A DNA stretch of 64,000 nt from Bacillus pumilus. Lineage in GTDB: Bacteria; Bacillota; Bacilli; Bacillales; Bacillaceae. The position numbers were made by a program, and so were the translations under genes. Below are positions 29,089 through 59,252 of the stretch, one piece after another; positions within the stretch are counted from its first letter, which is position 1; each line of letters starts with the position of its first letter. The notes below the pieces were generated by a model. That model did not search any database. It was not told the DNA's origin and was given only the letters and a program-made list of their open reading frames with translations. Where the stretch lies: contig NZ_CP101833.1 of NCBI RefSeq assembly GCF_024498355.1, positions 1,283,001-1,347,000 of the forward strand, given 5' to 3'.

Positions 29089-29257
29089 CAGCGTGTAGAC
29101 AAACCCTCGCATTCGTTGTCAGTCCTGCGTGCCGGTGCTCACGAATGTCAAATTCGCTCCAGTACTCGTCCTTCCTAGACTGCAAAGGTTTTCTATCACG
29201 CTGAAAAGAAGACAAAGGGCTAAAATAAAGTTCATTTTAGCCCTTTGTCAACAATCT
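29089..29257 (+). repeat. MITE-like intergenic repeat, copy 1 (169 bp)
   Basis: First of three copies in the window (also 43133-43295 and, inverted, 59078-59252). It begins CAGCGTGTAGACAAACCC and ends GCCCTTTGTCAACAATCT. The ends form imperfect terminal inverted repeats: CAGCGTGTAGACAAA against CAGATTGTTGACAAA in the best-preserved copy, 12 of 15 positions. Near the right end is an internal palindrome AGGGCTAAAAT / ATTTTAGCCCT. It has no coding capacity. It lies between ykwC and ykwD, flanked by duplicated hairpins. Confidence 0.85.
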
Positions 29258-29289
29258 AAAAGCCTGTCCCTCGGTGGGACAGGCTTTTT
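29258..29289. terminator. Right copy of the duplicated hairpin; terminator ykwC / ykwD
   Basis: AAAAGCCTGTCCC-TCGG-type loop-GGGACAGGCTTTTT: a strong intrinsic terminator facing both ways, between the repeat and the ykwD stop codon. Confidence 0.82.
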
Positions 29290-29293
29290 CATA

Positions 29294-30094
29294 TTATTTT
29301 CCGATGAATTGCTGCGTCCAGTAGTTGCCATCTTTCACATAACCAACACCAATATGTGTATAGTTTTTGTTTAAAATGTTCGCTCTGTGACCTTCACTGT
29401 TCATCCAAGCCGTTACAACTTCTTGAGGTGATCTTTGACCTTGGGCAATGTTTTCACCTGCTGTTTTGTAAGTGATACCGAATTGCTTCATTTGATCAAA
29501 TGGAGATCCGTAAGTTGGGCTTGTATGAGAGAAATAGTTTTTATCTTTCATATCTTGAGATTTTGCGCGCGCCGATTTGCTTAATTTTGAATCAACAGAA
29601 AGTGCCTTTAATCCTTGTTTTGCACGCTCTTTATTTGTCAGCTCAACTACTTCTTTTTCAAATGCATTTAAGCTGCTGTCTGCTTTTGCTGCAGTTGTGT
29701 CTTTTTGGTCAGCTTTTGTGCTGTTATTGTTGTTTGTGTTTTGTTTCGCTGGAGTGCTTGGTTTAGAAGCAGTTGGTTTTTTCACTGATTTTTGTTTTTG
29801 TTCATTTTTTGCTTTGTTTACTTCTTTCACCACTTTTGTACCAGTAACAGGTTGACCGCTTTTGATCAGCTTGTTTAATAGAGCTTCGATCTCTTTTTGG
29901 TTAGACTTGCTTAGCTTGTTCACATCTGAAGAGATATGTAATTTTGCAGCTAATGTATGAAGATCAATGGCTTGATGCTGTACGTGTATGACTTGTTTCA
30001 GGTTAAGCTCCTTTGCATCAGCTGAATGTCCTCCAGTGAACGTAATCAATGCAGCAGCTGTTAGCGCTGAAAAAAAGAATGATTTCTTCTTCAT
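29294..30094 (-). CDS. ykwD: Secreted CAP/SCP-domain protein YkwD
   Basis: 266-residue extracellular protein. Signal peptide MKKKSFFFSALTAAALITFTGGHSADA precedes a ~90-residue Lys/Gln/Ala-rich linker and a C-terminal CAP domain (~150-266) with NKERAKQGLKALSVDSKLSKSA, GENIAQGQRSPQEVVTAWMNSEGHRANIL and HIGVGYVKDGNYWTQQF. CAP-domain proteins of Bacillus resemble SafA/YkwD types with unknown enzymatic role. ATG 30094 follows TAGGAGGAG; the frame continues to 30133 without an RBS. Confidence 0.9.
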   Translation of the reverse strand: MKKKSFFFSALTAAALITFTGGHSADAKELNLKQVIHVQHQAIDLHTLAAKLHISSDVNKLSKSNQKEIEALLNKLIKSGQPVTGTKVVKEVNKAKNEQKQKSVKKPTASKPSTPAKQNTNNNNSTKADQKDTTAAKADSSLNAFEKEVVELTNKERAKQGLKALSVDSKLSKSARAKSQDMKDKNYFSHTSPTYGSPFDQMKQFGITYKTAGENIAQGQRSPQEVVTAWMNSEGHRANILNKNYTHIGVGYVKDGNYWTQQFIGK

Positions 30095-30430
30095 TTTGTA
30101 ACTCCTCCTAAAATCTTTGTTTTGTTTTCTCACAGAAAATCATAACATAGACTTTTTGTTATAAATGTACCAGCATCCTCCATTGACAAAGCGTGTTTGT
30201 CATTTTTGTTAAAGTCATAGAAAGAGCCTCTTCATATCAAAGGATAGGGAATTCTTCCACTTAATGAAAACGACATAAACATACCAATATTTTAAAGTGT
30301 TAGTATATTTTTTTGCAGAATAGGGATTGACAGCTTTTTTTCACTTGTTTCGCTGTAACAACTATTACAAAAGTGTTACAATAATGAGTGGTAATTGTAA
30401 AAGATTGAAAGGATGAGAGGAGCTACATAA

Positions 30431-32557
30431 GTGGGAGAGAAACAGCATCAAGGTGCTGCCGAGCAGAAAAAAATCAAGCGCCGGAACGCCTGGAGGATTA
30501 ATCTCTTTTTCTTCGCTGTATTTAGTTTATTTGCTGTACTTGTGATCAAGCTCGGTGTGCTGCAAATCGTCAATGGTGAGGATTATAAAAAGCAAGCAAA
30601 CCGAACAGAGGTCAAAACAGCATCATACCCGTCTCCAAGAGGAAAAATGTATGACGCGAGAGGAAGAGTCGTCGTTGATAACGAAAGTGTACCTGCGATC
30701 GTTTATACATCAGAAAGCGGTGTGAAAGCGGAGGATAAGATTAAGGTAGCAAGAAAACTTGCGACTTATATAAAAATGGATACTGATTTTTTGAGAGAGC
30801 GAGACATTCGAGATTTCTGGCTGGCCAGCCACCCGGAAGAAGCCGATAAGCTTATTTCAAAAGCAGAGAAAAAGGATATCAATGCGAAAGATGTCTATCC
30901 GCTTCAAGTGAAGCGTGTGCCAAAGAAAGAAGTAAAGGCCATTGAAAACGATGCAAACGAAAAAGCAGTTGCAGCGATCTACCGAAGATTTACAGGCGGC
31001 TATGCCTTTGAGCCTCAAATTGTGAAAGCAATGGACCCAAACGAAGAGAAAAAAGGGGACGAAAAAGTTGCTTTACTCGATGAAACAAAAGAATCAAAAC
31101 AGACATCATCAGAGAGTTTGACATACGAAGAAATTTCACTTGTATCAGAGCACCTTGATGAACTGCCTGGCGTGAATGTCATCAATGACTGGACAAGAAA
31201 ATATCCGTATGAAAAGACCCTTTATAATGTACTTGGCGGTGTGACCACACCAGAGCAAGGAATCATGAAAGAGCGTGAAGATTACTATATGGCAAGAGGC
31301 TACTCGCGAAATGACCGGGTAGGGAAGAGTTATTTAGAATATCAATACGAGGATTTCTTAAATCCAGAAAAAGCAACCGTTCAATATACACAAGTCGGCG
31401 GGAAGCTGCTTGATGAAATCAAGCGGACAGAGGGACGAAGAGGACTTGACCTTGCGCTGACATTTGATATGGAGCTGCAAAAGGAAGTCGACAAGATCGT
31501 CGAATCAGAGCTTAGATCCGCTAGTGCAAGAAACTATATGATGGACCGGGCATTTGTTGTCATGATGGATCCTAACACAGGCGACATTCTCGCCATGTCA
31601 GGAAAGAAAATGGACGGCAGAGATGTCACAGATTATGCCATTGGAAACTTTACAACGCAATATGAGATGGGCTCTGTCGTAAAAGGAGCCACTGTCCTCT
31701 CTGGTTATCAAGACGGGATGTCACACAATCAATCCTATATGGATACACCGCTCTACTTTGCAGGGAGTGGGGGGAAACCGAAAAGGTCTTACAAAGTTCT
31801 TGGGTGGGTTAATGACCTTCAGGCGCTTCAAAAAAGCTCAAACGTCTATATGTTCCAAGTAGCGATGAGGATGGCAGGCATCACCTATCAAAAGGATGGT
31901 CCTCTGCCAGCAAGACCTGAGCATTTACAAAAAATGAGAAATTATTATGCGCAATTCGGTCTTGGCGTGAAAACAGGGATCGACCTGCCGCAGGAATCAA
32001 GCGGAATGCAGACGCATCCTAAGACGGTCGGCGGGCTCTTACTTGATGAAGCAATTGGACAGTATGACACGTACACACCGCTTCAAGTCGCACAATACAT
32101 GTCGACAATCGCCAATGGAGGCAACCGTGTTCAGCCAAGAGTGGTGAAAAGTGTTCACCTTCCAACGAATAAGGAAGAAGTAGGCCCGGTTGTGAAAAAA
32201 TATGAGCCGAAGGTGCTGAATACCATTAACAACTCGAAAGCTGATATTGACCGCGTGAAAATGGGCCTGAAAATGGTCACATCAACAGGTGGGACTGCCG
32301 CTGGCCGGTTCGGTCAGCATGATGTAGCGGGGAAAACAGGCACAGCCCAAACCTTTTACTATGGCGCCAACCGCAGCTGGTGGGGAAATGCCACGTACAA
32401 TTTAACCTTTGGCGGATATTATCCTTCTTCTAATCCAAAGGTGGCTTTTAGTGTCGTGACCCCTTATGTCACAGATAAAGATCCTGTCATTAAAACCATC
32501 CCGAGTAAAATTGTTGATAAGTACGTTGAATTACAAAAAAAATACGAAAAGCAATAA
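30431..32557 (+). CDS. pbpH: Class B penicillin-binding protein PbpH
   Basis: Monofunctional transpeptidase of the elongation machinery, partly redundant with PBP2a in B. subtilis rod-shape maintenance. 708 residues: cytoplasmic tail, membrane helix at ~23-45 (NLFFFAVFSLFAVLVIKLGVL), PBP dimerisation domain (~60-330) with an insertion, then the transpeptidase domain with SVVK (EMGSVVKGAT, ~418), SSN (QKSSNVYMF, ~475) and KTGT (AGKTGTAQTF, ~635). Start GTG 30431 follows GAGGAG. A terminator separates it from kinA. Confidence 0.93.
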   Translation: MGEKQHQGAAEQKKIKRRNAWRINLFFFAVFSLFAVLVIKLGVLQIVNGEDYKKQANRTEVKTASYPSPRGKMYDARGRVVVDNESVPAIVYTSESGVKAEDKIKVARKLATYIKMDTDFLRERDIRDFWLASHPEEADKLISKAEKKDINAKDVYPLQVKRVPKKEVKAIENDANEKAVAAIYRRFTGGYAFEPQIVKAMDPNEEKKGDEKVALLDETKESKQTSSESLTYEEISLVSEHLDELPGVNVINDWTRKYPYEKTLYNVLGGVTTPEQGIMKEREDYYMARGYSRNDRVGKSYLEYQYEDFLNPEKATVQYTQVGGKLLDEIKRTEGRRGLDLALTFDMELQKEVDKIVESELRSASARNYMMDRAFVVMMDPNTGDILAMSGKKMDGRDVTDYAIGNFTTQYEMGSVVKGATVLSGYQDGMSHNQSYMDTPLYFAGSGGKPKRSYKVLGWVNDLQALQKSSNVYMFQVAMRMAGITYQKDGPLPARPEHLQKMRNYYAQFGLGVKTGIDLPQESSGMQTHPKTVGGLLLDEAIGQYDTYTPLQVAQYMSTIANGGNRVQPRVVKSVHLPTNKEEVGPVVKKYEPKVLNTINNSKADIDRVKMGLKMVTSTGGTAAGRFGQHDVAGKTGTAQTFYYGANRSWWGNATYNLTFGGYYPSSNPKVAFSVVTPYVTDKDPVIKTIPSKIVDKYVELQKKYEKQ

Positions 32558-32564
32558 ACAGCAG

Positions 32565-32594
32565 AGAGCACAGCAAGAGAATGTGCTCTTTTTT
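32565..32594 (+). terminator. Terminator of pbpH
   Basis: AGAGCACA / TGTGCTCT stem followed by TTTTT. Confidence 0.78.
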
Positions 32595-32625
32595 GCTGAA
32601 AATATGGACGTTTCACTCGATTATG

Positions 32626-32655
32626 GAAGGAAAATACGGGTTTTCTAGCGAATCT
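32626..32655 (+). promoter_or_regulatory. Sigma-H promoter of kinA
   Basis: GAAGGAAAA (32626-32634), 12-bp spacer, AGCGAATCT (32647-32655): fits RnAGGAwWW - 11/12 - RnnGAATww with a single weak position. kinA is a known sigma-H gene in B. subtilis. Confidence 0.85.
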
Positions 32656-32712
32656 TTTTTATACATCAATCTAAGGACAACCCTAAAAAAATAAAAGGAG
32701 GGTCGGACGACG

Positions 32713-34542
32713 ATGGAACAAAAAATGAAAGATTCGAATCAGTTGTATTCGAATATTGATTTACATGCCGTTCTTTCTTCTAATGGCCGCTTTCTCTACA
32801 TTTCTTCCAACTGTAAACAGCTTTTGCTCTATGAACAAAAGGATGTACTAGGGTGTTTTTTGAAGGACTTTGTTCATAACGAAGATCAATTTCTCGTCGA
32901 AAGCTATTTCTACAATCAGCACATGCTAGAGATTTGCCACTTTAGACTGCTAAGAAGTGATCTTACAGCTGTTTGGATTGAAGCAAGCATTGATTTTGTT
33001 GCTTGTGATGGTTTAGACAACGAATTAGGTAGAGAAATGATCCTGAAAATGAGGGTGCTGGACTCTGAGCCTCAAAAAGCAGCATTTCAAACAACATCAG
33101 ACGTGTCAGAACAGTCGTTATGCAGTCTACCGGCTTTCCAAAATGTCAGTGAAGCTGAAAAGTTAATTGCTATGCTGCCAAATCCGTTATGTATTACGGC
33201 GCTTGGGAAAATTGTGTATGCGAACGATGCGATGCTGCAATTAATGGGGGTATGCACAAGAGATGACATGATCGGCAAGTCCACGTTTGATTTTATTGCC
33301 GAGGATTATCACGACATAGTGAGAAACCGAATTACAAGACTGCAGCAAGGCCTTCCAGTCGGAATGATTGAACAAGAATGGAAGAGGAAAGACGGGAGCA
33401 GCATTCACATTGAAGTAAAGTCATCGCCTACGATCTATCAAAATCAGCGGGCAGAGCTTTTGCTCTTAGTGGACATCTCATCTCGTAAAAAATTCCAAAC
33501 CGTCCTTCAAAAAAGCCGAGAGCGGTATCAGCTGCTTATCCAAAATTCAATTGATACGATTGCGGTCATCCATGATCATAAATGGGTGTTTATGAATGAA
33601 TCGGGCATTAAATTATTTGAAGCCGAACATTACGATAAATTAATAGGAAAGGATATCTTTCATCAAATCCATTCTTGTGATCAGCCAAAAGTCAAAAAAA
33701 GCTTGTCGCGTATTATTGAAAGAGCATCAGATTCTGAGATTGTCACGATGAGCTGCCATACGTTTAAGCATAAGCTGATTTATACAGAAATGGTTTGTAT
33801 CCCAACAACATTCTTTGGAGAAACAGCCGTTCAAATTATTTTAAGAGATATATCCGAGCGAAAGCAGACAGAAGAACTGATGCTGCGCTCTGAAAAATTA
33901 TCGATTGCAGGCCAATTGGCAGCGGGCATTGCACATGAAATAAGGAATCCATTGACGGCCATTAAAGGCTTTTTGCAGCTCATTAAACCGAAAACAAAAG
34001 ATCGTGATCAATATTTCGACATTGTTTTCTCTGAGCTGAGCCGGATTGAGGTTATATTAAGTGAGTTGTTAATGCTCGCGAAGCCGCAGCAAACTGCATC
34101 GATGCAGACGCTTGATTTGAAAAAAATCATCAGCGAAGTCACGGCTTTGTTAGAAACACAGGCCAACTTAAATGGAATTTTAATGAACACAAGTGACATT
34201 GAGGAGGATCTCCTAATGAACGGGGATCAAAATCAGCTCAAGCAGGTGTTTATCAATTTAATCAAAAATGCTGTAGAATCCATGCCGGACGGAGGAAAGG
34301 TAGACATTACGGCCAAAGCAGAAAGAGATGGGATACTCGTCACCATTAGAGACGAAGGGGTCGGCATTCCTGAATCAGTCATGAAGCGAATAGGAGAGCC
34401 CTTTTTAACCACAAAAGAAAAGGGCACTGGACTCGGCCTCATGGTGACATTTAATATTTTAGAAAATCACAACGGGACGATCCGTGTCGATAGTCAGCCT
34501 GAGAAGGGCACCGTGTTTCACATCATGTTTCCTGCAAAATAA
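32713..34542 (+). CDS. kinA: Sporulation sensor histidine kinase KinA
   Basis: Major kinase starting the phosphorelay by phosphorylating Spo0F. 609 residues, no membrane helix, three PAS domains in tandem (~10-120, ~150-260, ~270-385) with PAC-type ends, then DHp H-box GIAHEIRNPLTAIKGFLQL (~407-427) and HATPase with N-box FINLIKNAVESM, G1 DEGVGIPE and G2 GTGLGLMVT. ATG 32713 follows AAAGGAGGG. Monocistronic, sigma-H driven; convergent with patA. Confidence 0.95.
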   Translation: MEQKMKDSNQLYSNIDLHAVLSSNGRFLYISSNCKQLLLYEQKDVLGCFLKDFVHNEDQFLVESYFYNQHMLEICHFRLLRSDLTAVWIEASIDFVACDGLDNELGREMILKMRVLDSEPQKAAFQTTSDVSEQSLCSLPAFQNVSEAEKLIAMLPNPLCITALGKIVYANDAMLQLMGVCTRDDMIGKSTFDFIAEDYHDIVRNRITRLQQGLPVGMIEQEWKRKDGSSIHIEVKSSPTIYQNQRAELLLLVDISSRKKFQTVLQKSRERYQLLIQNSIDTIAVIHDHKWVFMNESGIKLFEAEHYDKLIGKDIFHQIHSCDQPKVKKSLSRIIERASDSEIVTMSCHTFKHKLIYTEMVCIPTTFFGETAVQIILRDISERKQTEELMLRSEKLSIAGQLAAGIAHEIRNPLTAIKGFLQLIKPKTKDRDQYFDIVFSELSRIEVILSELLMLAKPQQTASMQTLDLKKIISEVTALLETQANLNGILMNTSDIEEDLLMNGDQNQLKQVFINLIKNAVESMPDGGKVDITAKAERDGILVTIRDEGVGIPESVMKRIGEPFLTTKEKGTGLGLMVTFNILENHNGTIRVDSQPEKGTVFHIMFPAK

Positions 34543-34568
34543 AAACAACGGCAAGAGAGCCGTTGTTT
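34541..34568. terminator. Bidirectional terminator kinA / patA
   Basis: AAACAACGGC / GCCGTTGTTT hairpin touching the patA stop codon. Confidence 0.8.
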
Positions 34569-35740
34569 CATTCGTCTGTTGAATGTATGGAACGTTTTTC
34601 AAGTATAAATTGTTCTAGCCGGTCAAGTCCTTCTTTCAGCGTTTCAAGTGAGTATGCATAGGAAAGGCGCACATACCCCTCGCCTAATGGAGAGAAAGCA
34701 GAGCCAGGTACGACAGCAAGTCTTGTACTTTCTAACAGCTCCATGCAAAAATCAAATGAACTCATTCCAAACGATTCAATGGATGGAAAAATATAAAAAG
34801 CGCCAGAAGGTTTAATGACCGGAAGCCCCATAGAAATGAGCCGATCATATACATAATCGAGTCTCTTCTTATATTGCTCTCTCATGATGAGTGCATCATC
34901 TACACCATTTGTCACGGCTTCAAGTGCCGCCTTTTGTGAGACAGCCGAGGCACAAGACACGTTATATTGATGTACTTTTAATACATGTTTAGCAATTGGA
35001 GCTGAAGCAAATAAAAAGCCAATTCTCCATCCGGTCATGCTATGAGATTTTGACAGTCCGTTGACCACAATGGTCTGTTCCTTTAGGAAAGAGGCAATTG
35101 AATGATGGGGCCGATCAAATGTCAGCTCACTATAAATTTCGTCGGATAAAATAAAGATGTCCTTTCCTTCAAGCAGCTGGGCAATTTCTTTCAATTCTTC
35201 TTCAGAAAGTGTGACACCTGTTGGGTTTGAAGGGTAAGGAAGGACAACACACTTTGTCTTTTCCGTTAATGCATCCTCAATCAGCTTGGCATTTAATTTA
35301 AAGCCAGCATTCGTTGTGTCGATATGTACGGGCGCCGCGCCGCACATTCGAATGATCGGTTCATAGCCAGGGTAAACAGGTCCAGGTAAAATGACCTCAT
35401 CACCCTCAGTCAAAATGGTTCGAAACGCAGCATCAATTGCTTGACTTGCACCTGTTGTGACAATGATTTCTGACTCTGCATCATAATCAAGATTCACTTT
35501 CTTCTTGATGTAATGCTGGATCGCTTGTCTTAGCTCTAGGAAACCAGCATTATGAGTATATGAGGTGAAATTCTCGTCAATGGCTGCTTTAGCAGCTGTT
35601 TTAACATGATGCGGCGTATAAAAATCGGGCTGACCTATAGTCAATGAAACGACATCCTCATATGACGATACGAGATTTGAAAATGTTCGAATGCCTGAAA
35701 TTTCAATATCCTTTACTCTTGGATTCAGCAAATGCTCCAT
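34568..35740 (-). CDS. patA: N-acetyl-L,L-diaminopimelate aminotransferase PatA
   Basis: PLP-dependent class I/II aminotransferase, 390 residues, acting between DapH and DapL in the acetylated lysine pathway. Lys-aldimine site in VVNGLSKSHSMTGWRIGF (~235), PLP contacts in TGASQAIDAAFRTIL (~95), YPSNPTGVTLS (~170) and FILSDEIYSEL (~200). dapH and dapL lie at 55-57 kb in the same window. ATG 35740 follows AAGGTGATGAG. In B. subtilis it also follows kinA. Confidence 0.92.
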   Translation of the reverse strand: MEHLLNPRVKDIEISGIRTFSNLVSSYEDVVSLTIGQPDFYTPHHVKTAAKAAIDENFTSYTHNAGFLELRQAIQHYIKKKVNLDYDAESEIIVTTGASQAIDAAFRTILTEGDEVILPGPVYPGYEPIIRMCGAAPVHIDTTNAGFKLNAKLIEDALTEKTKCVVLPYPSNPTGVTLSEEELKEIAQLLEGKDIFILSDEIYSELTFDRPHHSIASFLKEQTIVVNGLSKSHSMTGWRIGFLFASAPIAKHVLKVHQYNVSCASAVSQKAALEAVTNGVDDALIMREQYKKRLDYVYDRLISMGLPVIKPSGAFYIFPSIESFGMSSFDFCMELLESTRLAVVPGSAFSPLGEGYVRLSYAYSLETLKEGLDRLEQFILEKRSIHSTDE

Positions 35741-36031
35741 TTCTCATCACCTTAAAATATTTATGTTTTTATCCTATTTTACCATTCACTGCATAAATGT
35801 CACCTGCGGAAGGGCATCGGATATCATTATATGTAGTCTATTCTCCTATCCATCACAGCATGAGTGATATATTGAAGAAAGAGCAACATTTATTATAGCG
35901 TAACCAGCTCGGAAAATACAGGCTGTGATGATGATTAGAAAACGGCAAAACTGCGTAAAATGAAAGAACGTGAGAATGAAGTCATGGGAATGGCTTTCAT
36001 AGACATACGATCTCCTGAAGGAGGACGATAG

Positions 36032-36916
36032 ATGGAACAATCAGCGAAGACATCGAAAATAGCATTTCTATCCGTGATGAGTAACACATTTGTTGTGATC
36101 TTAAAAATCATTGTGGGGCTGTTAACTGGATCTGTTGCTGTTTTATCAGAAGCCATTCATTCCTTTCTCGATTTAATGGCATCTTTTATTGCATTTATCT
36201 CTGTTCGTATTTCAAGAAAGCCAGCAGATTCAAAACATCCTTATGGACATGGAAAAGTCGAAAATATTTCTGGAACCATTGAGACCCTGTTGATCTTTGT
36301 TGCTGGCATTTGGATCATATACGAATGTGTTCACAAATTAATGCATCCAGAGCCCGTCAAGCTGCCTATACTTGGCATTGTGGTCATGCTGTTAGGCGCG
36401 CTCATCAATTTTGTTGTATCGAGGGTTGTGAACAAAGAGGCAGAGAGAGTACATTCTGTCGCCATGAAATCGAATGCGCTGCATCTTTTAACAGATGTTT
36501 ATACGTCATTAGGGGTGGCATTTAGTTTATTGCTTGTTGCATTAACAGATTGGTATTTCCTAGATCCGATCATTGGTATGATTCTGGCCCTTTTTATTAT
36601 GCGTGAAGCGTTTAAACTCATGAAGGAAGCCTTCCCGCCGCTTGTAGACGCCCGGTTAACACCGGAGGAAGAACAATCGATAGAAGCTATCATTCAAGCA
36701 TTCAGCCAAGAATTCATTGAATACCATGACTTTCGAACAAGACGGTCTGGTGCAGAAGAATATATTGATTTCCATTTGATTGTGGATGGAAAAACTACCA
36801 TTAAAGATGTTCACCAATTATGTGATCGAATCGAAGAGAAGATTCAGCATGAATTTCCGCATGCACAAATCTTTATTCATGTGGAACCTGAAAGTGAAAG
36901 AAGTTCACAAACGTAA
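36032..36916 (+). CDS. Cation diffusion facilitator transporter
   Basis: 294-residue CDF metal/proton antiporter. About six membrane helices (~10-215), then a cytoplasmic ferredoxin-like domain ending HIFIHVEPE-type. Metal-site motifs are HxxxD twice: EAIHSFLDLMAS in helix 2 and NALHLLTDVYTS in helix 5. The metal cannot be told from sequence; members near FieF/MamM/YeaB move Zn, Fe or Mn. GGAGG precedes ATG 36032. It is not between patA and cheV in B. subtilis. Own terminator downstream. Confidence 0.85.
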   Translation: MEQSAKTSKIAFLSVMSNTFVVILKIIVGLLTGSVAVLSEAIHSFLDLMASFIAFISVRISRKPADSKHPYGHGKVENISGTIETLLIFVAGIWIIYECVHKLMHPEPVKLPILGIVVMLLGALINFVVSRVVNKEAERVHSVAMKSNALHLLTDVYTSLGVAFSLLLVALTDWYFLDPIIGMILALFIMREAFKLMKEAFPPLVDARLTPEEEQSIEAIIQAFSQEFIEYHDFRTRRSGAEEYIDFHLIVDGKTTIKDVHQLCDRIEEKIQHEFPHAQIFIHVEPESERSSQT

Positions 36917-36957
36917 AAAGGCGATCAACCTGCCTACAGGTTGTATCGCCTTTTTTT
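36914..36957 (+). terminator. Terminator of the CDF gene
   Basis: AAGGCGAT-ACCTG / CAGGT-ATCGCCTTTTTTT two-part stem. Confidence 0.85.
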
Positions 36958-36979
36958 ACGCTTCATCTATGAAATGAAA

Positions 36980-43070: not shown

Positions 43071-43132
43071 ACGTCCTAGGACATGAAGGACGTTGAAGCC
43101 ATGAAAAAAAGACTTTCTCAAAAAGAAAGCCC

Positions 43133-43295
43133 CAGCGTGTAGACAAACCCTCGCATTCGGTGTCAGTCCTGCGCTCCGGTGCTCACGAATCTCAAATTCG
43201 CTCCGCTCCGCTACTCGTCCTTCCTAGACTGCAAAGGTTTTCTATCACGCTGAAAAGAAGACAAAGGGCTAAAATGAAGATCATTTTAGCCCTTT
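43133..43295 (+). repeat. MITE-like intergenic repeat, copy 2 (right end truncated)
   Basis: Same element as at 29089, same orientation, beginning CAGCGTGTAGACAAACCC. The right end stops after GCCCTTT, without the GTCAACAATCT terminus. It has an extra CTCCG-type duplication in the middle. A small hairpin CTTTCT/AGAAAG lies at its left, but there is no duplicate at the right. It lies between the 58-aa gene and the ykuC stop. Confidence 0.85.
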
Positions 43296-48446: not shown

Positions 48447-48532
48447 ATAGAGAGAAGCTACTCTCTGTTCCCCAACCCCTCTATCAGATCAAGATCCAAA
48501 AAACTTGGCGCTACCCCCGCCAAGTTTTTTTT
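48447..48532 (+). ncRNA. fsrA: Iron-sparing small RNA FsrA
   Basis: About 86 nt, with the predicted start 7 bp after the -10. A C-rich unpaired segment CCCCAACCCCTCT is followed by a terminator AACTTGGCG / CGCCAAGTTTTTTTT. FsrA represses iron-rich enzymes (succinate dehydrogenase, aconitase and others) under iron starvation by pairing with Shine-Dalgarno regions. The position after ykuI and before ykuJ is that of B. subtilis fsrA, and the Fur box is perfect. Confidence 0.9.
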
Positions 48533-51089: not shown

Positions 51090-51533
51090 ATGATAGAGAT
51101 AGAACCGACTCAATTGCTTGAGTCAACAGTAGCGGAGCATATGATTGATGCAGATAAAGTGGCACATGTTCAAATTGGAAATAATCTTGAGCATGCCCTA
51201 TTGGTCTTGACAAAAACAGGATATACAGCCATACCAGTATTAGATGCTTCTTATCATCTACACGGGTTAATCGGAACGAATATGATCATGGATAAAATTT
51301 TTGGTTTAGAACGAATTGAATTCGAGAAACTGGACCAGTTGAAGGTAGAAGAGGTCATGTTAACGGATATTCCAAGACTCAAAACAACTGATCCTGTGCT
51401 AAAAGGCGTTCACGCTGTGACGAATAATGGATTTGTTTGTGTAGAAAATGAGGAGCAAGTATTTGAAGGGATTTTTACTCGACGTGTTGTATTAAAGCGC
51501 TTAAATGAGGTCATTCATTCCGCGAAAAAATGA
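51090..51533 (+). CDS. cbpB: c-di-AMP-binding CBS protein CbpB (DarB, YkuL)
   Basis: 147 residues, two CBS motifs forming one Bateman module: VAEHMIDADKVAHVQIGNNLEHALLVLTKTGYTAIPVLD (CBS1) and VEEVMLTDIPRLKTTDPVLKGV (CBS2). In B. subtilis the apo-protein activates Rel and pyruvate carboxylase and is inhibited by c-di-AMP. ATG 51090 gives the reference length; the longer frame from 51030 adds residues without an RBS. Upstream AAAGGGG. Confidence 0.92.
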   Translation: MIEIEPTQLLESTVAEHMIDADKVAHVQIGNNLEHALLVLTKTGYTAIPVLDASYHLHGLIGTNMIMDKIFGLERIEFEKLDQLKVEEVMLTDIPRLKTTDPVLKGVHAVTNNGFVCVENEEQVFEGIFTRRVVLKRLNEVIHSAKK

Positions 51534-51558
51534 GCTGCAGCCCAGCTTATTTTTTTTG
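51528..51558 (+). terminator. Terminator of cbpB
   Basis: AGCTG / CAGCT stem with TTATTTTTTTT; short stem. Confidence 0.55.
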
Positions 51559-51629
51559 CCTTCATAAGTTAAAATTTATATAATGATCATATGGAATAAG
51601 AAAAACTTATAGAGGGAGAGGGGACGCCC

Positions 51630-52511
51630 ATGCAGCTTCAAGAGTTACATATGCTTGTTGTGCTAAGTGAAGAATTGAATATGAGAAAGGCTTCGGAGCG
51701 GCTCTTTGTCTCTCAACCTGCATTATCTCAAAGGTTGCAAACGATCGAAAAGGAATGGGGAACTAAAATCTTTTTTCGTTCACAAAAAGGGCTGACCGTG
51801 ACTTCAGCAGGTGAACAGATTATCCAGTTTGCAAAAGAGGTCACGACGGAGCAAGATCGAGTGAGAGAGAGAATCGATGAGCTTGAAGGAGAAATTCATG
51901 GCACACTCAAGCTTGCAGTTGCGTCCATTATTGGACAGCACTGGCTGCCAAAGGTGTTAAAGCGGTATGTCGAAAAGTATCCAAATGCCAAAGTATCACT
52001 TGTTACCGGCTGGAGTAGTGAAATGCTCAAAAGCTTGTATGAAGACCATGTGCACATTGGCATTATTCGCGGAAACCCTGATTGGAAGGGGACAAAGGAA
52101 TATTTGATGACTGATCATTTATATTTAGTTGATTCCGTGATCAAGGACGTGGATGAGTTAATTGAGACAGAACGGCCGTTTATTCAATTTAAAAGCGACA
52201 GCACCTATTATCAGGAAATCCAGCACTGGTGGCACCAAAAATTTAAAGTTTCCCCAAAGCAGACGATTCTTGTGGACCAAATTGAGACATGTAAACAAAT
52301 GGCTTATCATGGCATCGGCTATGCCATTTTGCCTTCTGTCACCTTATATGACCACGAAAAAAGTGTTCATAAAACCCCGCTCGTTGATGTAAATGGAGAA
52401 CAAATTGGACGTGACACATGGCTTTTAGGCTATGAAGCATCTTTTCAGTTAAAACAGGTTCAAGCATTTGTTGGTGTAGTGAAAGAAATGCTTGAAAGTG
52501 ATGCAGTGTAA
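51630..52511 (+). CDS. ccpC: Catabolite control protein CcpC (LysR family)
   Basis: LysR-type regulator, 293 residues, that represses citB (aconitase) and citZ in response to citrate. HTH region HMLVVLSEELNMRKASERLFVSQPALSQRLQTIEK split over residues ~6-40, then the periplasmic-binding-like effector domain (~90-290). AGGGAGAGGGG before ATG 51630. A hairpin terminator follows. Iron-sulfur aconitase is also a target of FsrA, encoded 3 kb upstream. Confidence 0.92.
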   Translation: MQLQELHMLVVLSEELNMRKASERLFVSQPALSQRLQTIEKEWGTKIFFRSQKGLTVTSAGEQIIQFAKEVTTEQDRVRERIDELEGEIHGTLKLAVASIIGQHWLPKVLKRYVEKYPNAKVSLVTGWSSEMLKSLYEDHVHIGIIRGNPDWKGTKEYLMTDHLYLVDSVIKDVDELIETERPFIQFKSDSTYYQEIQHWWHQKFKVSPKQTILVDQIETCKQMAYHGIGYAILPSVTLYDHEKSVHKTPLVDVNGEQIGRDTWLLGYEASFQLKQVQAFVGVVKEMLESDAV

Positions 52512-52540
52512 GTACCTTCTGGAAGAGGAGGTGCTTTTTT
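52511..52540 (+). terminator. Terminator of ccpC
   Basis: GTACCTTCT / AGGAGGTGC stem of 9 bp including G-U pairs, six T after it. The AGAGGAGG in its right arm mimics an RBS. Confidence 0.65.
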
Positions 52541-52561
52541 AGGATAAGTGAACGTTCTTGG

Positions 52562-53044
52562 TTGAATTCAATTCTCGCCTATTTATCATACTACGAAAAA
52601 AGCAGAAAGCTGGATCAAATGATGAGAAATAAACAAAGAAGAAAGATTGACATACCGAAGTGGGGAAAATATTTACGAGGGAGATGGCGTGAACGTTTTG
52701 CAAGCCATCTTTCATTAGAAGAACAAAAAGAGATCGGGATAGATGGTTTTCTATGGCACTTATGCAGCTGGAGAAAGGTTGCATGCCTTGAAAAAGAGGA
52801 AGCGATAAACGCATTTCTTCAAACAAAGCATAAATGTACAATTTTTTATCAATTTGTGGACGAAGCATATCTTCTTGAAAACGCTAGTGCACTCTCAATG
52901 AATGAATGACCATATAAAGATGGTGATATGGATTACAGCGATATGTATGTCATGGATTGGGAGGAAAATTGGACATTTGTGATGACGCACGAAACCGATT
53001 GCGGTCCATATTTTATTCAGAAACATAAAACGAGTGAATCATAA
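52562..53044 (+). pseudogene. DUF4275 family protein with an in-frame stop
   Basis: The frame reads LWHLCSWRKVACLEKEEAI, CTIFYQFVDEAYLLENASAL and, after TGA 52907, continues in the same frame with KDGDMDYSDMYVMDWEENW, TFVMTHETDCGPYFIQKH to TAA 53044. Both halves belong to DUF4275, in which CGPYF ends the domain. The TGA codon splits it, and there is no good start or RBS at the 5' end (TTG 52562 is the first start; the nearest AGGAGG lies in the ccpC terminator). Likely dead, though a frame with just one stop is recent damage. Confidence 0.75.
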
Positions 53045-53153
53045 AGCTATGATATCCTGATCATTTTAGAACCGCCTTCCAATTGGAATGAGCGGTTTTT
53101 TATGTGGGTTCTTTTTATCTTGAACAACGCTTATTCATAAAAACATTTGACAA

Positions 53154-53205
53154 TGAAAATCATTATCATTTAAAGTGTACATATAATAATTGAAAATGAT
53201 TATCA
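53154..53205 (+). promoter_or_regulatory. Two Fur boxes upstream of ykuN
   Basis: TGAAAATCATTATCA (53154-53168) and TGAAAATGATTATCA (53191-53205), each with one mismatch to TGATAATnATTATCA. They bracket the promoter region (TTGACA at 53147-53152), giving tight iron repression as in B. subtilis ykuNOP. Confidence 0.88.
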
Positions 53206-53226
53206 TTTAGATGAGGTGACCAATAG

Positions 53227-53703
53227 ATGAAAGCACTAATTGCATTTGCGAGTATGTCTGGCAATACGGAAGATATGGCAGCAATCTTAAAGCAAACATT
53301 TCAAGGAAAAGGGATAGATACAGAGATGATGGAATTTGATGATACGAGTGCAGAGGATCTTTCTTCATACGATTATGTATTGATCGGTTCCTATACTTGG
53401 GGTGATGGAGATTTACCTTATGAAGCAGAGGATTTTTATGAAGAGGTCTCTACTCTTGAACTTAGTGACATCAAAGCGGCTGTATTCGGATCTGGTGATT
53501 ACAGTTATCCGAAGTTTTGCGAGGCTGTTCATACATTCCATGACATGCTGAAATCAACAGGTGCATCCGTATTTCCTGAAACATTGAAAATGGAGCTTGC
53601 GCCAGATACAGATGAGGATGTGGCGTGCTGTCAGGAATTTGCCACCAGCTTTTTAACGTGGGCCTCTTTGTCTGAGAAACGAGTTGAAAATCATGTTTCA
53701 TAA
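53227..53703 (+). CDS. ykuN: Flavodoxin YkuN
   Basis: Short-chain flavodoxin, 158 residues, an FMN electron carrier that replaces ferredoxin when iron is low. FMN phosphate loop SMSGNTEDMA (~10), loop [10 protein letters not shown] (~57) and FGSGDYSY (~88). GAGGTGACC precedes ATG 53227. Heads the Fur-regulated ykuN-ykuO-ykuP operon; overlaps ykuO by 11 bp. Confidence 0.95.
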   Translation: MKALIAFASMSGNTEDMAAILKQTFQGKGIDTEMMEFDDTSAEDLSSYDYVLIGSYTWGDGDLPYEAEDFYEEVSTLELSDIKAAVFGSGDYSYPKFCEAVHTFHDMLKSTGASVFPETLKMELAPDTDEDVACCQEFATSFLTWASLSEKRVENHVS

Positions 53704-54586
53704 AGGTGCAACGGCCGTTGCTGCATCTAAAAGTGGTGGATACTTTGTCGCGGTAAAACGAGAAGGTATTTTCCACTACAGTGTTGAGAGCGGGTGGCAG
53801 CAGCTGTTTAAGCTCAAGCATAAAATTCATGCCATCAGCTATATTGGGCCTTATTTATTTGGTGTTGGTGAAAATGGAACAGTGATCAGGTCAGGGGATG
53901 AGGGCAATACGTGGGCGCTATCGTCATTTCCAACAAATGCAGTTGTTTGGTCTATTACAGGGCGCAAAGATGGTTTTGTGTGCGCACATGGAAAACACAG
54001 TATTTATGTGTCAACCGATTTCGGGATTTCCTGGGAAATTATGAAGCCGTTTGCTCACGTGAATCATCCTCCAGTGATTCGTTCGTTATGTGTTGCAGGT
54101 GATCACCTTTATATTGGAACACAGATTCATGAGGTTCATGGAGGAATATGGGTGTATGACTTGCAGAGTGAACAGATTTTTCTACTAAACAGAGAAGAGC
54201 ATCGAATGACAGCTTCTATGCTGTTCTATGAGGAACATCTTCTTGTCTGTGCGTTAGGCTCAAAAAAAGGCAAGAAAGGATCAGTTCAAATTCTAGACTT
54301 ACATACAAATATTCTACATGATATTCAATCACAGGCCTTCGCTAGAGAAGAATCGTTTTTGGATGTGTCAGAGGATAATGGCATTGTGTATGTGACCACC
54401 TCGCAAGACGAACACGGGTTTTCTAAAGTGTATCAGCTTGATATAGAGCAAAAAGAGCTCAAATGGTTTGATACGATCAAAGGACACGGTTTTCGTGTAG
54501 CCAATCAAAACGAAAATTTTTTCTGCGCGGGTTTATATGAAAGCAAGTTTGTCAGGCCTTATGAGGAGCCTGCGCTGATTCATTGA
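53693..54586 (+). CDS. ykuO: YkuO protein, BNR/beta-propeller-like
   Basis: 297 residues from ATG 53693 (TTG 53684 is an alternative), overlapping ykuN. Asp-box (BNR) type motifs recur: SGDEGNTWALSSFP (~65), STDFGISWEIMKPF (~102), GTQIHEVHGGIWVYD (~138), suggesting a beta-propeller. Its role beside two flavodoxins in a Fur operon is unknown; it could partner the flavodoxins, which is inference. Confidence 0.85.
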   Translation: MFHKGATAVAASKSGGYFVAVKREGIFHYSVESGWQQLFKLKHKIHAISYIGPYLFGVGENGTVIRSGDEGNTWALSSFPTNAVVWSITGRKDGFVCAHGKHSIYVSTDFGISWEIMKPFAHVNHPPVIRSLCVAGDHLYIGTQIHEVHGGIWVYDLQSEQIFLLNREEHRMTASMLFYEEHLLVCALGSKKGKKGSVQILDLHTNILHDIQSQAFAREESFLDVSEDNGIVYVTTSQDEHGFSKVYQLDIEQKELKWFDTIKGHGFRVANQNENFFCAGLYESKFVRPYEEPALIH

Positions 54587-54602
54587 TAAGGAGGAAGAAA
54601 AA

Positions 54603-55061
54603 GTGACAGAAAAGGTTTTATTGGTGTATGCCACGATGTCTGGGAACACAGAAGCAATGGCAGATTTAATTGAAAAAGGATTAAAGGATGCAGGAGCTAG
54701 CGTCGACCGGCATGAAGCGATGGATATTGATGCCGAGCTTCTGAATGATTACTCGCACATTATGTTAGGTGCGTATACATGGGGAGATGGTGATCTTCCA
54801 GATGACTTTATTGATTTATATGAAGAAATGGAAGAGCTTGATTTAACCGGAAAAGCGTTTGCTGTATTCGGTTCCGGAGATACATCTTATGAGCATTTTT
54901 GCGGAGCTGTTGACTTAATCGAAGAAAAAGTGAAGGATCTCGGCGGTGATATTGTCCTGCCATCAGTCAAAATTGAGCTGAATCCAGAAGGAGACGAAGA
55001 AGAGGAATTGATTTCTTTTGGCAAACAATTTATTCAACTTCACCAGCAAGAAGTGGGATAA
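54603..55061 (+). CDS. ykuP: Flavodoxin YkuP
   Basis: Second short-chain flavodoxin, 152 residues, closely paralogous to Yku[13 protein letters not shown] (~10), [13 protein letters not shown] (~57), [12 protein letters not shown] (~90). Very acidic, as flavodoxins are. GTG 54603 follows AAGGAGGAAG. Third gene of the Fur operon. Confidence 0.95.
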
Positions 55062-55106
55062 TGGGGCCCGCTTGTTTTATTTTCCATTGAAGAGTCAACT
55101 CTTTCA

Positions 55107-55135
55107 CTTGTCATTAAAACTCTCCTTTGATACAG
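55107..55135 (+). promoter_or_regulatory. Candidate sigma-A promoter of dapH
   Basis: TTGTCA (55107-55112), 17-bp spacer, TACAGT (55130-55135), 35 bp before the dapH ATG. Confidence 0.6.
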
Positions 55136-55170
55136 TAATGAAGTATAAATTAAGAGGAGGACATACATAC

Positions 55171-55881
55171 ATGAAACAAATGGACGCTAATGAAATTATT
55201 TCATTTATTCAAAATAGTACAAAATCAACACCTGTTAAAGTCTATATCAAAGGTGACTTAAAAGATATTGAATTTGGTGAACAGGCAAAAACGTTCATCA
55301 CGGGCAACACAGGTGTTGTCTTCGGTGAGTGGAGTGAAATCCAAGAAGCTCTAGCATCAAACAAAGACAAAATTGAAGATGTTGTTGTGGAAAATGACCG
55401 CCGCAACTCTGCGATTCCTATGTTAGACTTGAAAAACATTAAAGCACGTATTGAACCGGGTGCAATCATTCGTGATCAAGTTGAAATCGGTGATAATGCA
55501 GTCATCATGATGGGTGCTTCTATTAATATCGGTTCTGTGATCGGTGAAGGTACGATGATTGACATGAACGTGGTGCTTGGCGGCCGCGCGACAGTAGGTA
55601 AGAACTGTCATATCGGTGCTGGATCTGTTCTTGCGGGTGTTATTGAGCCGCCATCTGCTAAACCAGTCGTCGTAGAAGATGATGTTGTCATCGGCGCGAA
55701 CGCTGTTGTTTTAGAAGGCGTGACAATTGGTAAAGGAGCGGTTGTAGCAGCTGGTGCGATCGTTGTCAACGATGTTGAGCCTTACACAGTTGTAGCAGGT
55801 ACACCTGCTAAGAAAATCAAAGACATTGATGAAAAAACAAAAGGTAAGACTGAAATTAAACAAGAACTGCGTCAGCTTTAA
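55171..55881 (+). CDS. dapH: Tetrahydrodipicolinate N-acetyltransferase DapH
   Basis: Left-handed beta-helix acetyltransferase of the lysine/diaminopimelate pathway, 236 residues. Hexapeptide repeats run from ~90 to ~210 ([60 protein letters not shown]). ATG 55171 follows AGAGGAGG; the longer frame from 55018 overlaps ykuP. dapL follows; patA is elsewhere in the window. Confidence 0.96.
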
Positions 55882-55907
55882 TTCATACAATTCGCAGCAG
55901 AAGACAT

Positions 55908-55936
55908 AGACGTGGATGATATATCCACGTCTTATT
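55908..55936 (+). terminator. Hairpin between dapH and dapL
   Basis: AGACGTGGAT / ATCCACGTCTTATT; strong stem with poor T-tract, so it may only partly stop dapH transcription before dapL. Confidence 0.5.
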
Positions 55937-55963
55937 CGTATAGTGGAAAGGAAGCGAGTTCAC

Positions 55964-57094
55964 TTGTTAAATCGTGAGCAATTAATATCCATTCGAAGAG
56001 ATTTACACCAAATTCCCGAGCTTGGTTTCCAAGAATTTAAAACACAAGCGTATCTCATCAAGCATCTCGACACGTATTCAAAGGATCGAGTAGAGATTGA
56101 AACATGGCGGACTGGACTTTTTGTGAAAGTGAAGGGAACAAATGCCGCGCGCGTATTTGCTTATCGTGCAGATATGGACGGTTTATCTATTCCTGAGGAA
56201 ACTGGGTATCCATTTCAATCTGTGCATGAAGGGAAAATGCATGCATGTGGACATGACCTTCATATGACCATTGCCCTTGGTATCATTGATTATTTCGTTC
56301 ACCAGCCAATCAAAGAAGATATCCTATTTATTTTTCAACCAGCAGAAGAAGGGCCAGGCGGAGCTGAACCGATGCTTGCAAGTGATGTTTTGAAAAAGTG
56401 GACGCCAGACTTTATTACAGCGCTGCATATTGCACCTGAGTATCCAGTCGGAACGATTGCAACAAAGCCTGGGCTATTATTTGCCAATACGAGTGAACTT
56501 GTGATCGATCTTGAAGGAAAAGGCGGACATGCCGCTTACCCTCATTTAGCGAATGATATGGTTGTCGCTGCAAGTGCACTTGTAGGTCAGCTGCAATCTG
56601 TCATTTCTCGTAATGTCGATCCACTTGATAGTGCAGTGATTACAGTCGGAACGATTACGGGAGGAACTGCTCAAAATATCATTGCTCAACATGCCAAACT
56701 TGACGGAACCATTCGCACGCTCTCACCAGAGTCTATGGAAAAGGTGAGAAAGCGAATTGAAGCGCTAGCAAAAGGAATTGAAATTGGCTACGAATGCAAG
56801 GCAACAGTTCGATACCCTTCATCTTATTACGAAGTGGATAATTCAAAGGACCTGACAGAAGAATTTATGTCATATGTAGCCAAAGAAGGGCTTGCGAATG
56901 TAATTGAATGTAGAGAAGCCATGACAGGAGAAGATTTTGGCTACATGCTGAAAAAATATCCTGGCTTCATGTTTTGGTTAGGGGTAGATTCAGAATATGG
57001 TCTGCACCATGCAAAACTCATGCCTGATGAAAAGGCCATCGAAACGGCTGTAAATGTCATGACGGCTTATTTTAAAAAGCAAGCGGGTGAATGA
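55964..57094 (+). CDS. dapL: N-acetyldiaminopimelate deacetylase DapL (YkuR)
   Basis: M20-family metallopeptidase-type deacetylase, 376 residues from TTG 55964 (9 bp after AAGGAAG). Metal ligands: [14 protein letters not shown] (~75), ACGHDLHMT (~100), [14 protein letters not shown] (~135) and the final His in GLHHAKLMP. Last step making meso/LL-DAP in the acetyl branch. ykuS begins just downstream. Confidence 0.92.
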
Positions 57095-57144
57095 ATAATC
57101 GTGCTGCCTCCTGTACACCTTATGACCAGGAGGTGTTCTTGATT

Positions 57145-57387
57145 ATGACAAGAATTGGTGTAGAACCATCTTTATCCGATGTAGAAGAACTTTTGAAGCA
57201 AAAAGGGTATGACGTCGTACGTATTCAAAATGAACAACAAATGGATCAGTGTGACTGCTATGTGGTGACAGGACTAGATTCAAATGTTCTTGGCATTTCA
57301 GACACAACGACAAAGGCATCCGTCATTACAGCGTCAGGTATGACGGCTGATGAAATTTGTCAAGAAGTAGAACAGCGTGTTCAATAA
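57145..57387 (+). CDS. ykuS: UPF0180 family protein YkuS
   Basis: 80 residues from ATG 57145: MTRIGVEPSLSDVEELLKQKG, CDCYVVTGLDSNVLGISDTT and a Thr/Ser-rich end. AGGAGGTG upstream; TTG 57139 is a possible alternative start. Function unknown. Convergent with ykuT. Confidence 0.85.
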   Translation: MTRIGVEPSLSDVEELLKQKGYDVVRIQNEQQMDQCDCYVVTGLDSNVLGISDTTTKASVITASGMTADEICQEVEQRVQ

Positions 57388-57410
57388 AACAAGCAAAAAG
57401 AACCGGTAGA

Positions 57411-58228
57411 TTATGAACCCGGTTCTTTTTGCTTTTTCTCTATATCGAGTACTTCTTTCATTTTTTTGCGCAAGATTCGTTCTACCCGCCACTGCTCCAT
57501 TGTTTCGGTTTTCGCAATGATACGCAGCACGAGGGAAGACGAACCGAACGCCTCCACTCCGACCACTTGCGGTCCTTCAATAATCTGAGGTGTTTCTGCC
57601 CGTACCTCATCACAGGCTGCTTGTAAGGCTGTAATCATCTGATCCACATTTTCATTTGGAGATAATTCAATATCAACCAGTGCCTGCATGGTCCCTCTTG
57701 AATGGTTACTAACATTCAGTATGCTTCGATTTGGAATGAAATGAAGGGTGCCATCAAAGCTTCGAAGCTGTGTAGTTCTAAGTCCGATTTGTTCTACGAT
57801 GCCATCAAAGCCTGCAACCGTGATATACTCACCTACATCAAATTGTTTTTCTAATAGAATAAAAAATCCTGTCACAATATCACTCACTAGTCCCTGTGCG
57901 CCAAAACCGATTGCAAGCCCAACAACACCTGCGCCAGCTAGCAAAGCAGTCGGATTATAATGAAATAAGTCGAGGATCATGACAACTAGAATAAAAATCA
58001 ATAAGTAGGCGAAGATATTTAACGTAAGACTTTGCAGCGTCTGAGCTCTTGATGAAGGACTTCATGCTTCTCAGAGAATGTTGAATAGGCACGCTTAATC
58101 ATCTTGTTTCCTATAGCTCTGATGATAAAATAAATCAAAAAAATAGCGATTAATTTTAGCAAAATTATACTGCTATTGAGGATGATGGAAACCCAATCTA
58201 CTTGTTCAAATGCTGTTATGATCTTCAA
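57411..58228 (-). pseudogene. ykuT: Mechanosensitive channel YkuT (MscS family), frameshifted
   Basis: N-terminal part (58228-58019: first helix ILLKLIAIFLIYFIIRAIG) and the main part (58001-57411: pore helix [20 protein letters not shown], beta domain, C-term) are in different frames. Near 58055, the first frame reads [11 protein letters not shown] and stops; the other continues [20 protein letters not shown] into the second part, fitting YkuT. A one-base indel explains this. Either a pseudogene or a sequencing error. Full YkuT is ~267 residues. Confidence 0.85.
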
Positions 58229-58365
58229 AATCTTTCTATGTATGCTCTAAAAGAGAAGCTAATCATTTGTTCCCTCATGCAAGTCATGTTAAACTTTTGT
58301 TAGTTGGAGCGAGAGATTGTGACGAATCGTTAATTAAATTTATTATTAATTAATATTGACTAAAA

Positions 58366-58394
58366 ATCGCTTAAGTATTATAATTATATTTGTG
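58366..58394 (+). promoter_or_regulatory. Sigma-A promoter of ykuU
   Basis: TTGACT (58366-58371), 17-bp spacer, TATAAT (58389-58394), near consensus. Confidence 0.75.
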
Positions 58395-58406
58395 AAGTTA
58401 TTAACT

Positions 58407-58462
58407 AAATGAGAATTTCATCTTTTGATTCTCATTTTATATACAGCTAAGAAGTCTGTATA
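58407..58462 (+). promoter_or_regulatory. Two hairpins in the ykuU leader
   Basis: AAATGAGAAT / ATTCTCATTT (58407-58437) and TATACAG / CTGTATA (58440-58462) directly downstream of the promoter and before the RBS TGGAGGG. The first has perfect 10-bp pairing and a short T-run, the second 7 bp. They may stabilise or attenuate the mRNA. Confidence 0.45.
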
Positions 58463-58491
58463 AAGATATTATTTTATGGAGGGATTTACAT

Positions 58492-59034
58492 ATGGCAGAG
58501 CGTTTTGTAGGAAAACAAGCTCCACGTTTTGAAATGGAAGCAGTACTTGCTAACAAGGAATTTGGTAAAGTAAGTTTAGAGGAAAACATGAAGAATGACA
58601 AATGGACAGTTCTTTTCTTCTATCCAATGGATTTCACATTTGTTTGCCCAACTGAAATTACAGCAATGAGCGATCGTTATGATGAGTTTGAAGACTTAGA
58701 TGCAGAAATCATTGGTGTATCTACTGATACAATCCATACCCATCTTGCTTGGATCAACACAGATCGTAAAGACAATGGTCTAGGTGAATTAAAATACCCG
58801 CTAGCTGCTGACACAAACCACACAGTATCTAGAGAATACGGCGTTTTAATTGAAGAAGAAGGAATTGCACTTCGCGGTCTATTCATCATTAACCCAGAAG
58901 GCGAACTTCAATATCAAACAGTATTCCACAACAATATCGGTCGTGATGTAGATGAGACATTACGTGTTCTTCAAGCATTACAAACTGGTGGACTTTGCCC
59001 AGCGAACTGGAAGCCTGGTCAAAAAACACTTTAA
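58492..59034 (+). CDS. ykuU: 2-Cys peroxiredoxin YkuU
   Basis: AhpC/Prx1-type peroxiredoxin, 180 residues. Peroxidatic Cys in FYPMDFTFVCPTEITA (~52), resolving Cys in GGLCPANW (~169). Reduces hydrogen peroxide and organic peroxides. GGAGG upstream. Followed in B. subtilis directly by ykuV; here the repeat copy 3 separates them. Confidence 0.93.
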   Translation: MAERFVGKQAPRFEMEAVLANKEFGKVSLEENMKNDKWTVLFFYPMDFTFVCPTEITAMSDRYDEFEDLDAEIIGVSTDTIHTHLAWINTDRKDNGLGELKYPLAADTNHTVSREYGVLIEEEGIALRGLFIINPEGELQYQTVFHNNIGRDVDETLRVLQALQTGGLCPANWKPGQKTL

Positions 59035-59056
59035 TTGATAGCTGAAGAAGCAGGAG

Positions 59057-59077
59057 GGTCTAACTGATGTTAGACCT
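59057..59077. repeat. Left copy of a duplicated ykuU terminator hairpin
   Basis: 21-bp palindrome (GGTCTAAC / GTTAGACC arms). An identical 21-bp copy lies at 59254-59274 on the far side of repeat copy 3. The left copy has lost the T-tract; the right copy keeps TTTTT. Confidence 0.85.
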
Positions 59078-59252
59078 CAGATTGTTGACAAAGGGCTAAA
59101 ATGAACTTTATTTTAGCCCTTTGTCTTCTTTTCAGCGTGATAGAAAACCTTTGCAGTCTAGGAAGGACGAGTACCGGAGCAGAGCGAATGTGACATTCGT
59201 GAGCACCGGCACGCAGTACTGACACCGAATGCGAGGGTTTGTCTACACGCTG
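59078..59252 (-). repeat. MITE-like intergenic repeat, copy 3 (175 bp, inverted)
   Basis: Same element as at 29089, reverse orientation, both ends complete: CAGATTGTTGACAAA at the left and TTTGTCTACACGCTG at the right (imperfect inverted repeats, 12 of 15). It splits the ykuU-ykuV pair and is flanked by an identical 21-bp hairpin on each side. Confidence 0.88.

Follow-up and report, generated by a model that had tools for sequence, protein, structure and literature searches.

What is a repeat of about 170 bp doing at three gene ends of one short stretch of a Bacillus pumilus genome, and how did it get there? The window, by which we mean the whole stretch of 64,000 nucleotides analysed here, carries three copies that an initial annotation had located at 29089-29257 (+), 43133-43295 (+) and 59078-59252 (-), and the sequence is indeed present at all of these positions. 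As had been described, the end motifs share 12 of 15 positions and the spurious open reading frames in copies 1 and 3 have peptide stretches in common. The terminal base is A in copy 1 and G in copy 3, and the palindrome near one end is part of a stem of 16 to 18 pairs. The annotation was silent on the duplicated terminator-like hairpin that brackets copies 1 and 3, and the terminator-hairpin target, the hairpin-sized target duplication and the IS1182-family partner described below go beyond it. The features of the three sites are as follows.

29062..29088, no strand: proximal copy of the duplicated terminator hairpin of site 1, 27 bp, a direct repeat of 29259-29285 (25/27 identical)
29089..29258, + strand: MITE copy 1, about 170 bp, placed by the sequence, the genome search and profile matches
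29211..29249, no strand: 3' hairpin of MITE copy 1, stem of 18 pairs, terminator-like on the - strand
29259..29285, no strand: distal copy of the duplicated terminator hairpin of site 1, followed by a T-run, terminator-like on the + strand
43109..43132, no strand: proximal hairpin of site 2, terminator-like on the - strand, distal copy missing
43133..43295, + strand: MITE copy 2, 3' end cut at model position 163 of 175
59056..59077, no strand: hairpin copy adjoining the MITE 3' end at site 3, 22 bp, identical to 59253-59274
59078..59252, - strand: MITE copy 3, full length, 175 bp
59087..59125, no strand: 3' hairpin of MITE copy 3, stem of 18 pairs
59253..59274, no strand: hairpin copy adjoining the MITE 5' end at site 3, then a T-run on the + strand

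The proximal hairpin of site 1 (29062..29088) is still terminator-like on the - strand and its distal counterpart on the + strand, a pattern consistent with preserved termination. Copy 2 is without its last 12 model positions and without a distal hairpin, and both in the window (43109-43295) and at the same site of the relative G001 (L254) the hairpin at the 3' end of the MITE itself has come to lie next to the former T-run and may now act as the terminator there; the terminator scan of the window flags it only on the - strand. A promoter-like TTGACA-18-TATTTT that points inward and overlaps the terminal repeat is seen at the MITE 3' end (59085-59114 on the + strand, 29251-29222 on the - strand). 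Elsewhere in the window Rfam places an FsrA sRNA (48447-48529, +) and a PreQ1 riboswitch (7162-7206, +) above gathering score.

When the genome (3.74 Mb, two contigs) was searched with copy 1, 117 candidates were obtained at first look, of which 40 were scored. Using a profile made from 64 near-complete copies and run on the stretches around pattern matches, we found at least 90 non-overlapping matches, a lower bound that refers to these stretches only. Near full length is reached by 68 of the 90, which start at model position 1-3, end at 170-175 and are about 175 bp long, and the median pairwise identity over 75 aligned rows is 93%. This is a repeat family far beyond chance, and it has the properties of a MITE, being short, with terminal inverted repeats (12/15) and only short spurious open reading frames, and showing many copies, polymorphic presence and target duplication. 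The claim that it is seen only at gene ends stands up to a rough test based on the longest flanking open reading frame, as 42 of the 90 copies lie between convergent, 47 between co-directional and one between divergent frames. Within the genus, 38 of 44 genomes were matched at E <= 0.001, four of them (G002, G003, G025 and G040) by one or two weak matches only, and in 14 more distant congeners full-length matches of about 77-86% identity show a distinct version of the ends and of the 3' hairpin. No match was found in 36 genomes from five other genera of the family, with up to 10 candidates scored per genome, or in phage records, and only 4 of 72,556 plasmid records had one. The plasmid records NZ_CP078511.1 and NZ_CP078512.1, labelled as Stutzerimonas stutzeri and derived from a mixed culture, contain the MITE at 94-96% identity and may be mislabelled Bacillus sequence.

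Looking at the flanks, we found a hairpin directly before CAGCGTG and usually the same hairpin directly after CAATCTG. For a strict test of duplication the 60-base flanks were aligned locally and a score of at least 27 was demanded, the maximum of 2000 mismatched flank pairs being 26. An adjacent direct repeat passing this test borders 55 of the 68 near-full copies; it is 16-30 bp long (median 24) and identical on both sides in 25 of the 55. Among the 13 failures, five (797857, 879926, 1656925, 3015908 and 3205467) have adjacent similar hairpins below the threshold and eight have none. At two places (G000 C1:797857 and C1:879926) part of the stem-loop of one flanking hairpin looks like the reverse of the other, which would fit a flip of one of them. 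In relatives, 41 of 46 distinct full-length MITE sites passed the strict test, one more site having been dropped for a short flank and two as repeats of the same site.

The duplicated sequence is nearly always a hairpin, with a stem of at least 7 pairs in 52 of the 55 duplications compared to 156 of 1650 nearby sequences and 126 of 1650 shuffles. It is also centred: for the 46 flush duplications the offset between the dyad and the centre of the repeat is at most 0.5 bp in 40 and at most 1 bp in 44, and a stem of at least 8 pairs together with an offset of at most 1 bp occurs in 42 of 46 as opposed to 35 of 920 control placements. The first base of the flush repeats is A in 38/46 and the last base T in 39/46. 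A T-run (5 of 8 bases) follows the distal hairpin in 38 of 55 cases and an A-run precedes the proximal hairpin in 34; both are present in 22, the T-run alone in 16, the A-run alone in 12 and neither in 5, which shows no strong orientation preference.

Comparison with relatives supported the view of a non-autonomous MITE-like element, since copies share their ends and their presence varies between genomes. The comparison between strains proposed in the initial annotation has now been made, and clean empty sites were found for sites 1, 2 and 3. At site 1, analysed in 16 relatives, one hairpin and no element is present in seven (G004, G013, G018, G019, G020, G024, G034) and the element is in one piece in four (G021, G028, G030, G043), with the distal hairpin gone in G030 and mostly gone in G043. 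The element sequence lies at a contig or rearrangement break in three further genomes (G022, G041, G042) and a remnant is left in two (G001, G023). Site 3 is empty with a single hairpin, the counterpart of 59056..59077, in seven of 10 relatives and filled in three. At site 2, where three of 10 relatives could be resolved, G018 and G030 are empty with one hairpin and G001 is filled and has lost the distal hairpin as in the window; in G013 only one side could be aligned, and six relatives gave no resolution.

The statement that no transposase gene is present in the window holds for PF01609, as none of its five places in the genome lies inside it. PF01609 places lie beside ends similar to those of the MITE. 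Four have an open frame and belong to an IS of 1547-1549 bp with the ends CAGGCTGTCGAGAAA and CAGATTGTAGAGAAA, flanked by repeated hairpins (one of them incomplete at L148), the 5' ends being less similar to that of the MITE (10/15). The fifth place is a decayed remnant ending in a hairpin and TTTGTCTACGGTCTG, and its open stretch finds open-frame relatives with 82-85% identity in G021 and G022. Four of the latter (L161, L162, L186, L187) start with CAGCTTGTAGACAAAGTCTACAAGCTTTTTT and end in a hairpin plus TTTGTCTACGGTCTG; duplicated hairpins flank L161, L162 and L186, and the hairpins on the two sides of L187 (G021) differ. In this group 14 of 15 positions of the 5' end and 12 of 15 of the 3' end are identical to the MITE, and a hairpin is located just inside the 3' end. 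The transposases of both IS groups match the IS1182 model NF033551 with 487 and 480 bits (cut-off 270); the domains DUF772, DDE_Tnp_1_6 and DDE_Tnp_1 were also identified. Other IS families were considered as partner and rejected, the IS5-type models staying below their cut-offs. Judged from these similarities, the likely partner of the MITE is an IS1182-family IS with matching end architecture that is open in two relatives and decayed in this genome. In the IS1182 elements L145-L148, L161, L162 and L169-L172 the terminal repeat forms a palindrome with an inverted copy of itself at the 5' end, and a T-rich stretch comes next; this palindrome could protect the transposase gene against transcription entering from outside.

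A single terminator in G022 bears a MITE and an IS together with three hairpin copies. In the same genome the two sides of site 1 are 0.8 Mb apart and in opposite orientation, the break lying inside an IS1182 copy (L214 at C1:2877388, L226 at C1:3691188), which is probably the result of an inversion between two IS copies. A composite MITE and IS event at this split site was considered and dropped, as L214 and L226 show MITE and IS on one terminator and the break inside the IS.

In order to see how broad the hairpin duplication is, we scanned named genomes and took the best 80 IS1182-relative loci of a longer list, of which nine were dropped for short flanks and 71 were examined; several of the 71 share one genome and are thus not independent. 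Under a lenient rule (repeat score at least 34, stem at least 7 pairs) a hairpin duplication is present at 64 of the 71 loci and absent at 7. Under an exact rule (repeat of up to 40 bp) it is present at 52 of the 71, all with a stem of at least 7 pairs and 48 centred within 0.5 bp. According to their record titles the passing loci come from Bacillus, Cytobacillus, Peribacillus, Domibacillus, Compostibacillus, Fictibacillus, Pseudoneobacillus, Metabacillus, Sporosarcina, Ureibacillus, Lederbergia, Priestia, Robertmurraya, Thermoflavimicrobium and others. The targeting of palindromes by some members of the IS1182 family, cited in the part of PMC5678879 considered here, is thus also found for these relatives. 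In 36 of 46 MITE and 38 of 52 IS cases both edges of the duplication fall 0-4 bases beyond the outermost G-C pair, and in the other 10 and 14, respectively, an edge is outside this band. Duplication length correlates moderately with the fully extended stem span (r 0.46) and with the G-C core (r 0.43 for the MITE, 0.38 for the IS), and these values weaken a strict reading in which the duplication is as long as the hairpin. Centring on the dyad is firmly shown, but exact length matching is not.

Based on the shared ends, the targets and the transposase family we consider it very probable that the MITE is a relative of an IS1182-family IS whose transposase targets intrinsic-terminator hairpins, and that this IS most likely mobilises it in trans. 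The fold of the element was analysed in an alignment (A1) of 56 copies, 13 out of the 68 from this genome, 13 from close relatives and 30 from more distant congeners. Its consensus has two domains, one on the 5' side, where the terminal repeat and its internal copy form the closing stem, and a 16-pair hairpin on the 3' side. Changes on both sides were observed in 13 of 41 consensus pairs and, with 55 distinct copies, in 9 of the 16 pairs of the 3' hairpin, and 98.2% of the pairing cells are compatible with pairing compared to 92.5% in shuffles and 33-42% in slid controls. Copy 3, the only copy folded singly, folds better than all 200 shuffles (z -8.15 as DNA, -7.81 as RNA). Within this genome the 132 changed pair cells divide into 68 broken, 35 one-sided and 29 two-sided ones, and singletons per column amount to 0.38 and 0.44 in the stems versus 0.65 in unpaired columns of the 5' domain. 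This may point to a structure that is kept by copies still moving and decays after landing.

Such a fold could also mean that the repeat is a family of structured RNAs or 3' UTRs which has a function for the host and was spread by duplication beside terminators, its mobility being incidental. The initial annotation had named a conserved structured RNA with compensatory changes as the alternative to a mobile repeat. Such a fold does exist, but it accompanies mobility and does not replace it. The two-domain structure with its both-sided changes, the location at gene 3' ends and the somewhat lower number of singletons in stems would all fit an RNA with a function. Against it, presence at the same terminator differs between genomes, hairpins are duplicated at both ends, the ends match those of an IS and the 68 broken pair cells suggest decay after landing. 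Moreover, Rfam 15 gave no match at gathering score over the repeat in the window, where FsrA and PreQ1 were the only hits, and at lax thresholds two MITE copies gave sub-threshold matches only, none of them near the gathering score. We thus regard a host RNA as unlikely.

IS1272 and TnSha1, two IS1182-family elements of staphylococci, are described to target hairpins without a common sequence in both orientations, and several of these hairpins were confirmed as terminators; in the parts of these reports considered here the hairpin is partly or wholly deleted without target duplication (PMC4923244, PMC5678879). The transposase family and the kind of target are the same as in our case, which would speak for a similar stem-loop replacing transposition in Bacillus with the target hairpin lost on insertion, but the hairpin deleted there is kept on both sides here. 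The two hairpins at 55 of 68 near-full copies and the one hairpin in empty sites contradict it for most copies, and those with one hairpin, like window copy 2 and site 1 of G030, have shortened element ends, which points to later deletion. We consider replacement highly improbable. The outcome seen here is predicted by pathway b in the model of PMC5678879, where joining at the 5' feet of the stem-loop duplicates the whole stem-loop; in the part of that paper considered, it is a possible pathway in a model figure, whereas here there are many natural cases. That the element inserted between the members of an older tandem terminator pair might be concluded from hairpin pairs differing by several bases, but is contradicted at sites 1 and 3 by the relatives' empty sites with one hairpin, also conflicts with the 25 of 55 identical pairs and deserves next to no credence.

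For movement by an IS1182 transposase we propose that the enzyme would recognise the palindrome as hairpin or cruciform and join the ends of the element to each strand close to the hairpin's 5' foot, and that gap repair would then duplicate the hairpin. A hairpin with its own A-run or T-run would be left on either flank of the element, so that the neighbouring genes should still have a terminator, and this would explain the tolerance of so many copies. The two-domain fold of the MITE parallels the hairpins at both ends of the IS and is probably part of transposase binding. In a more general form, transposases of the IS1182 group in Bacillaceae would read the structure of the target and join symmetrically about the dyad just outside the G-C core, the stagger being set by the hairpin rather than by the enzyme alone, and each insertion would rebuild terminators and create a renewable safe harbour that is exploited by a structured MITE across one genus. 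We lean towards this general form with some reserve, as the moderate length correlations lower the probability that structure sets the stagger; the idea of a renewable harbour that can be hit again is drawn from the G022 site with three hairpins.

Short dispersed repeats of Bacillus include the bcr1 repeats and the 190-bp repeat of B. subtilis. As diverged MITE copies occur in many congeners, the MITE may be related to the latter, with which it is compared by description only and on which our literature search found no paper. Bacterial MITEs in general, as far as covered by the part of PMC10969869 considered, are likewise short and non-coding with terminal inverted repeats, IS-related ends, many copies and target duplication; the difference here is the terminator hairpin as target and the hairpin-sized duplication. 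The pneumococcal SPRITE, RUP and BOX (PMC3049150, considered in part and compared by description) are also short dispersed repeats, and SPRITE is terminator-like itself and enriched near gene 3' ends, whereas the present MITE inserts at existing terminators. Thus, hairpin targeting by IS1182 elements and MITEs as such are already known. In the open-access literature nothing was found on the present repeat or on natural whole-hairpin duplication by IS1182 elements, and as far as searched, two points are new: that in a broad Bacillaceae group hairpins are, as a rule, duplicated in natural insertions, and that a structured MITE occurs at terminators throughout one genus.

Most DDE transposases produce a duplication of near-fixed length. 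The dozens of natural insertions described here, with a variable duplication centred on the target palindrome, can be used directly to ask how DNA structure is perceived by IS1182 enzymes and to compare duplication with the deletion mode described in the literature, and they possibly offer a way to study the recognition of DNA shape by transposases. They also offer a reason why one element can be present in a single genome at gene 3' ends in 90 copies or more. In such genomes transposition has turned dozens of terminators into hairpin-element-hairpin arrays, and these arrays matter for the annotation of 3' UTRs and for the evolution of terminators.
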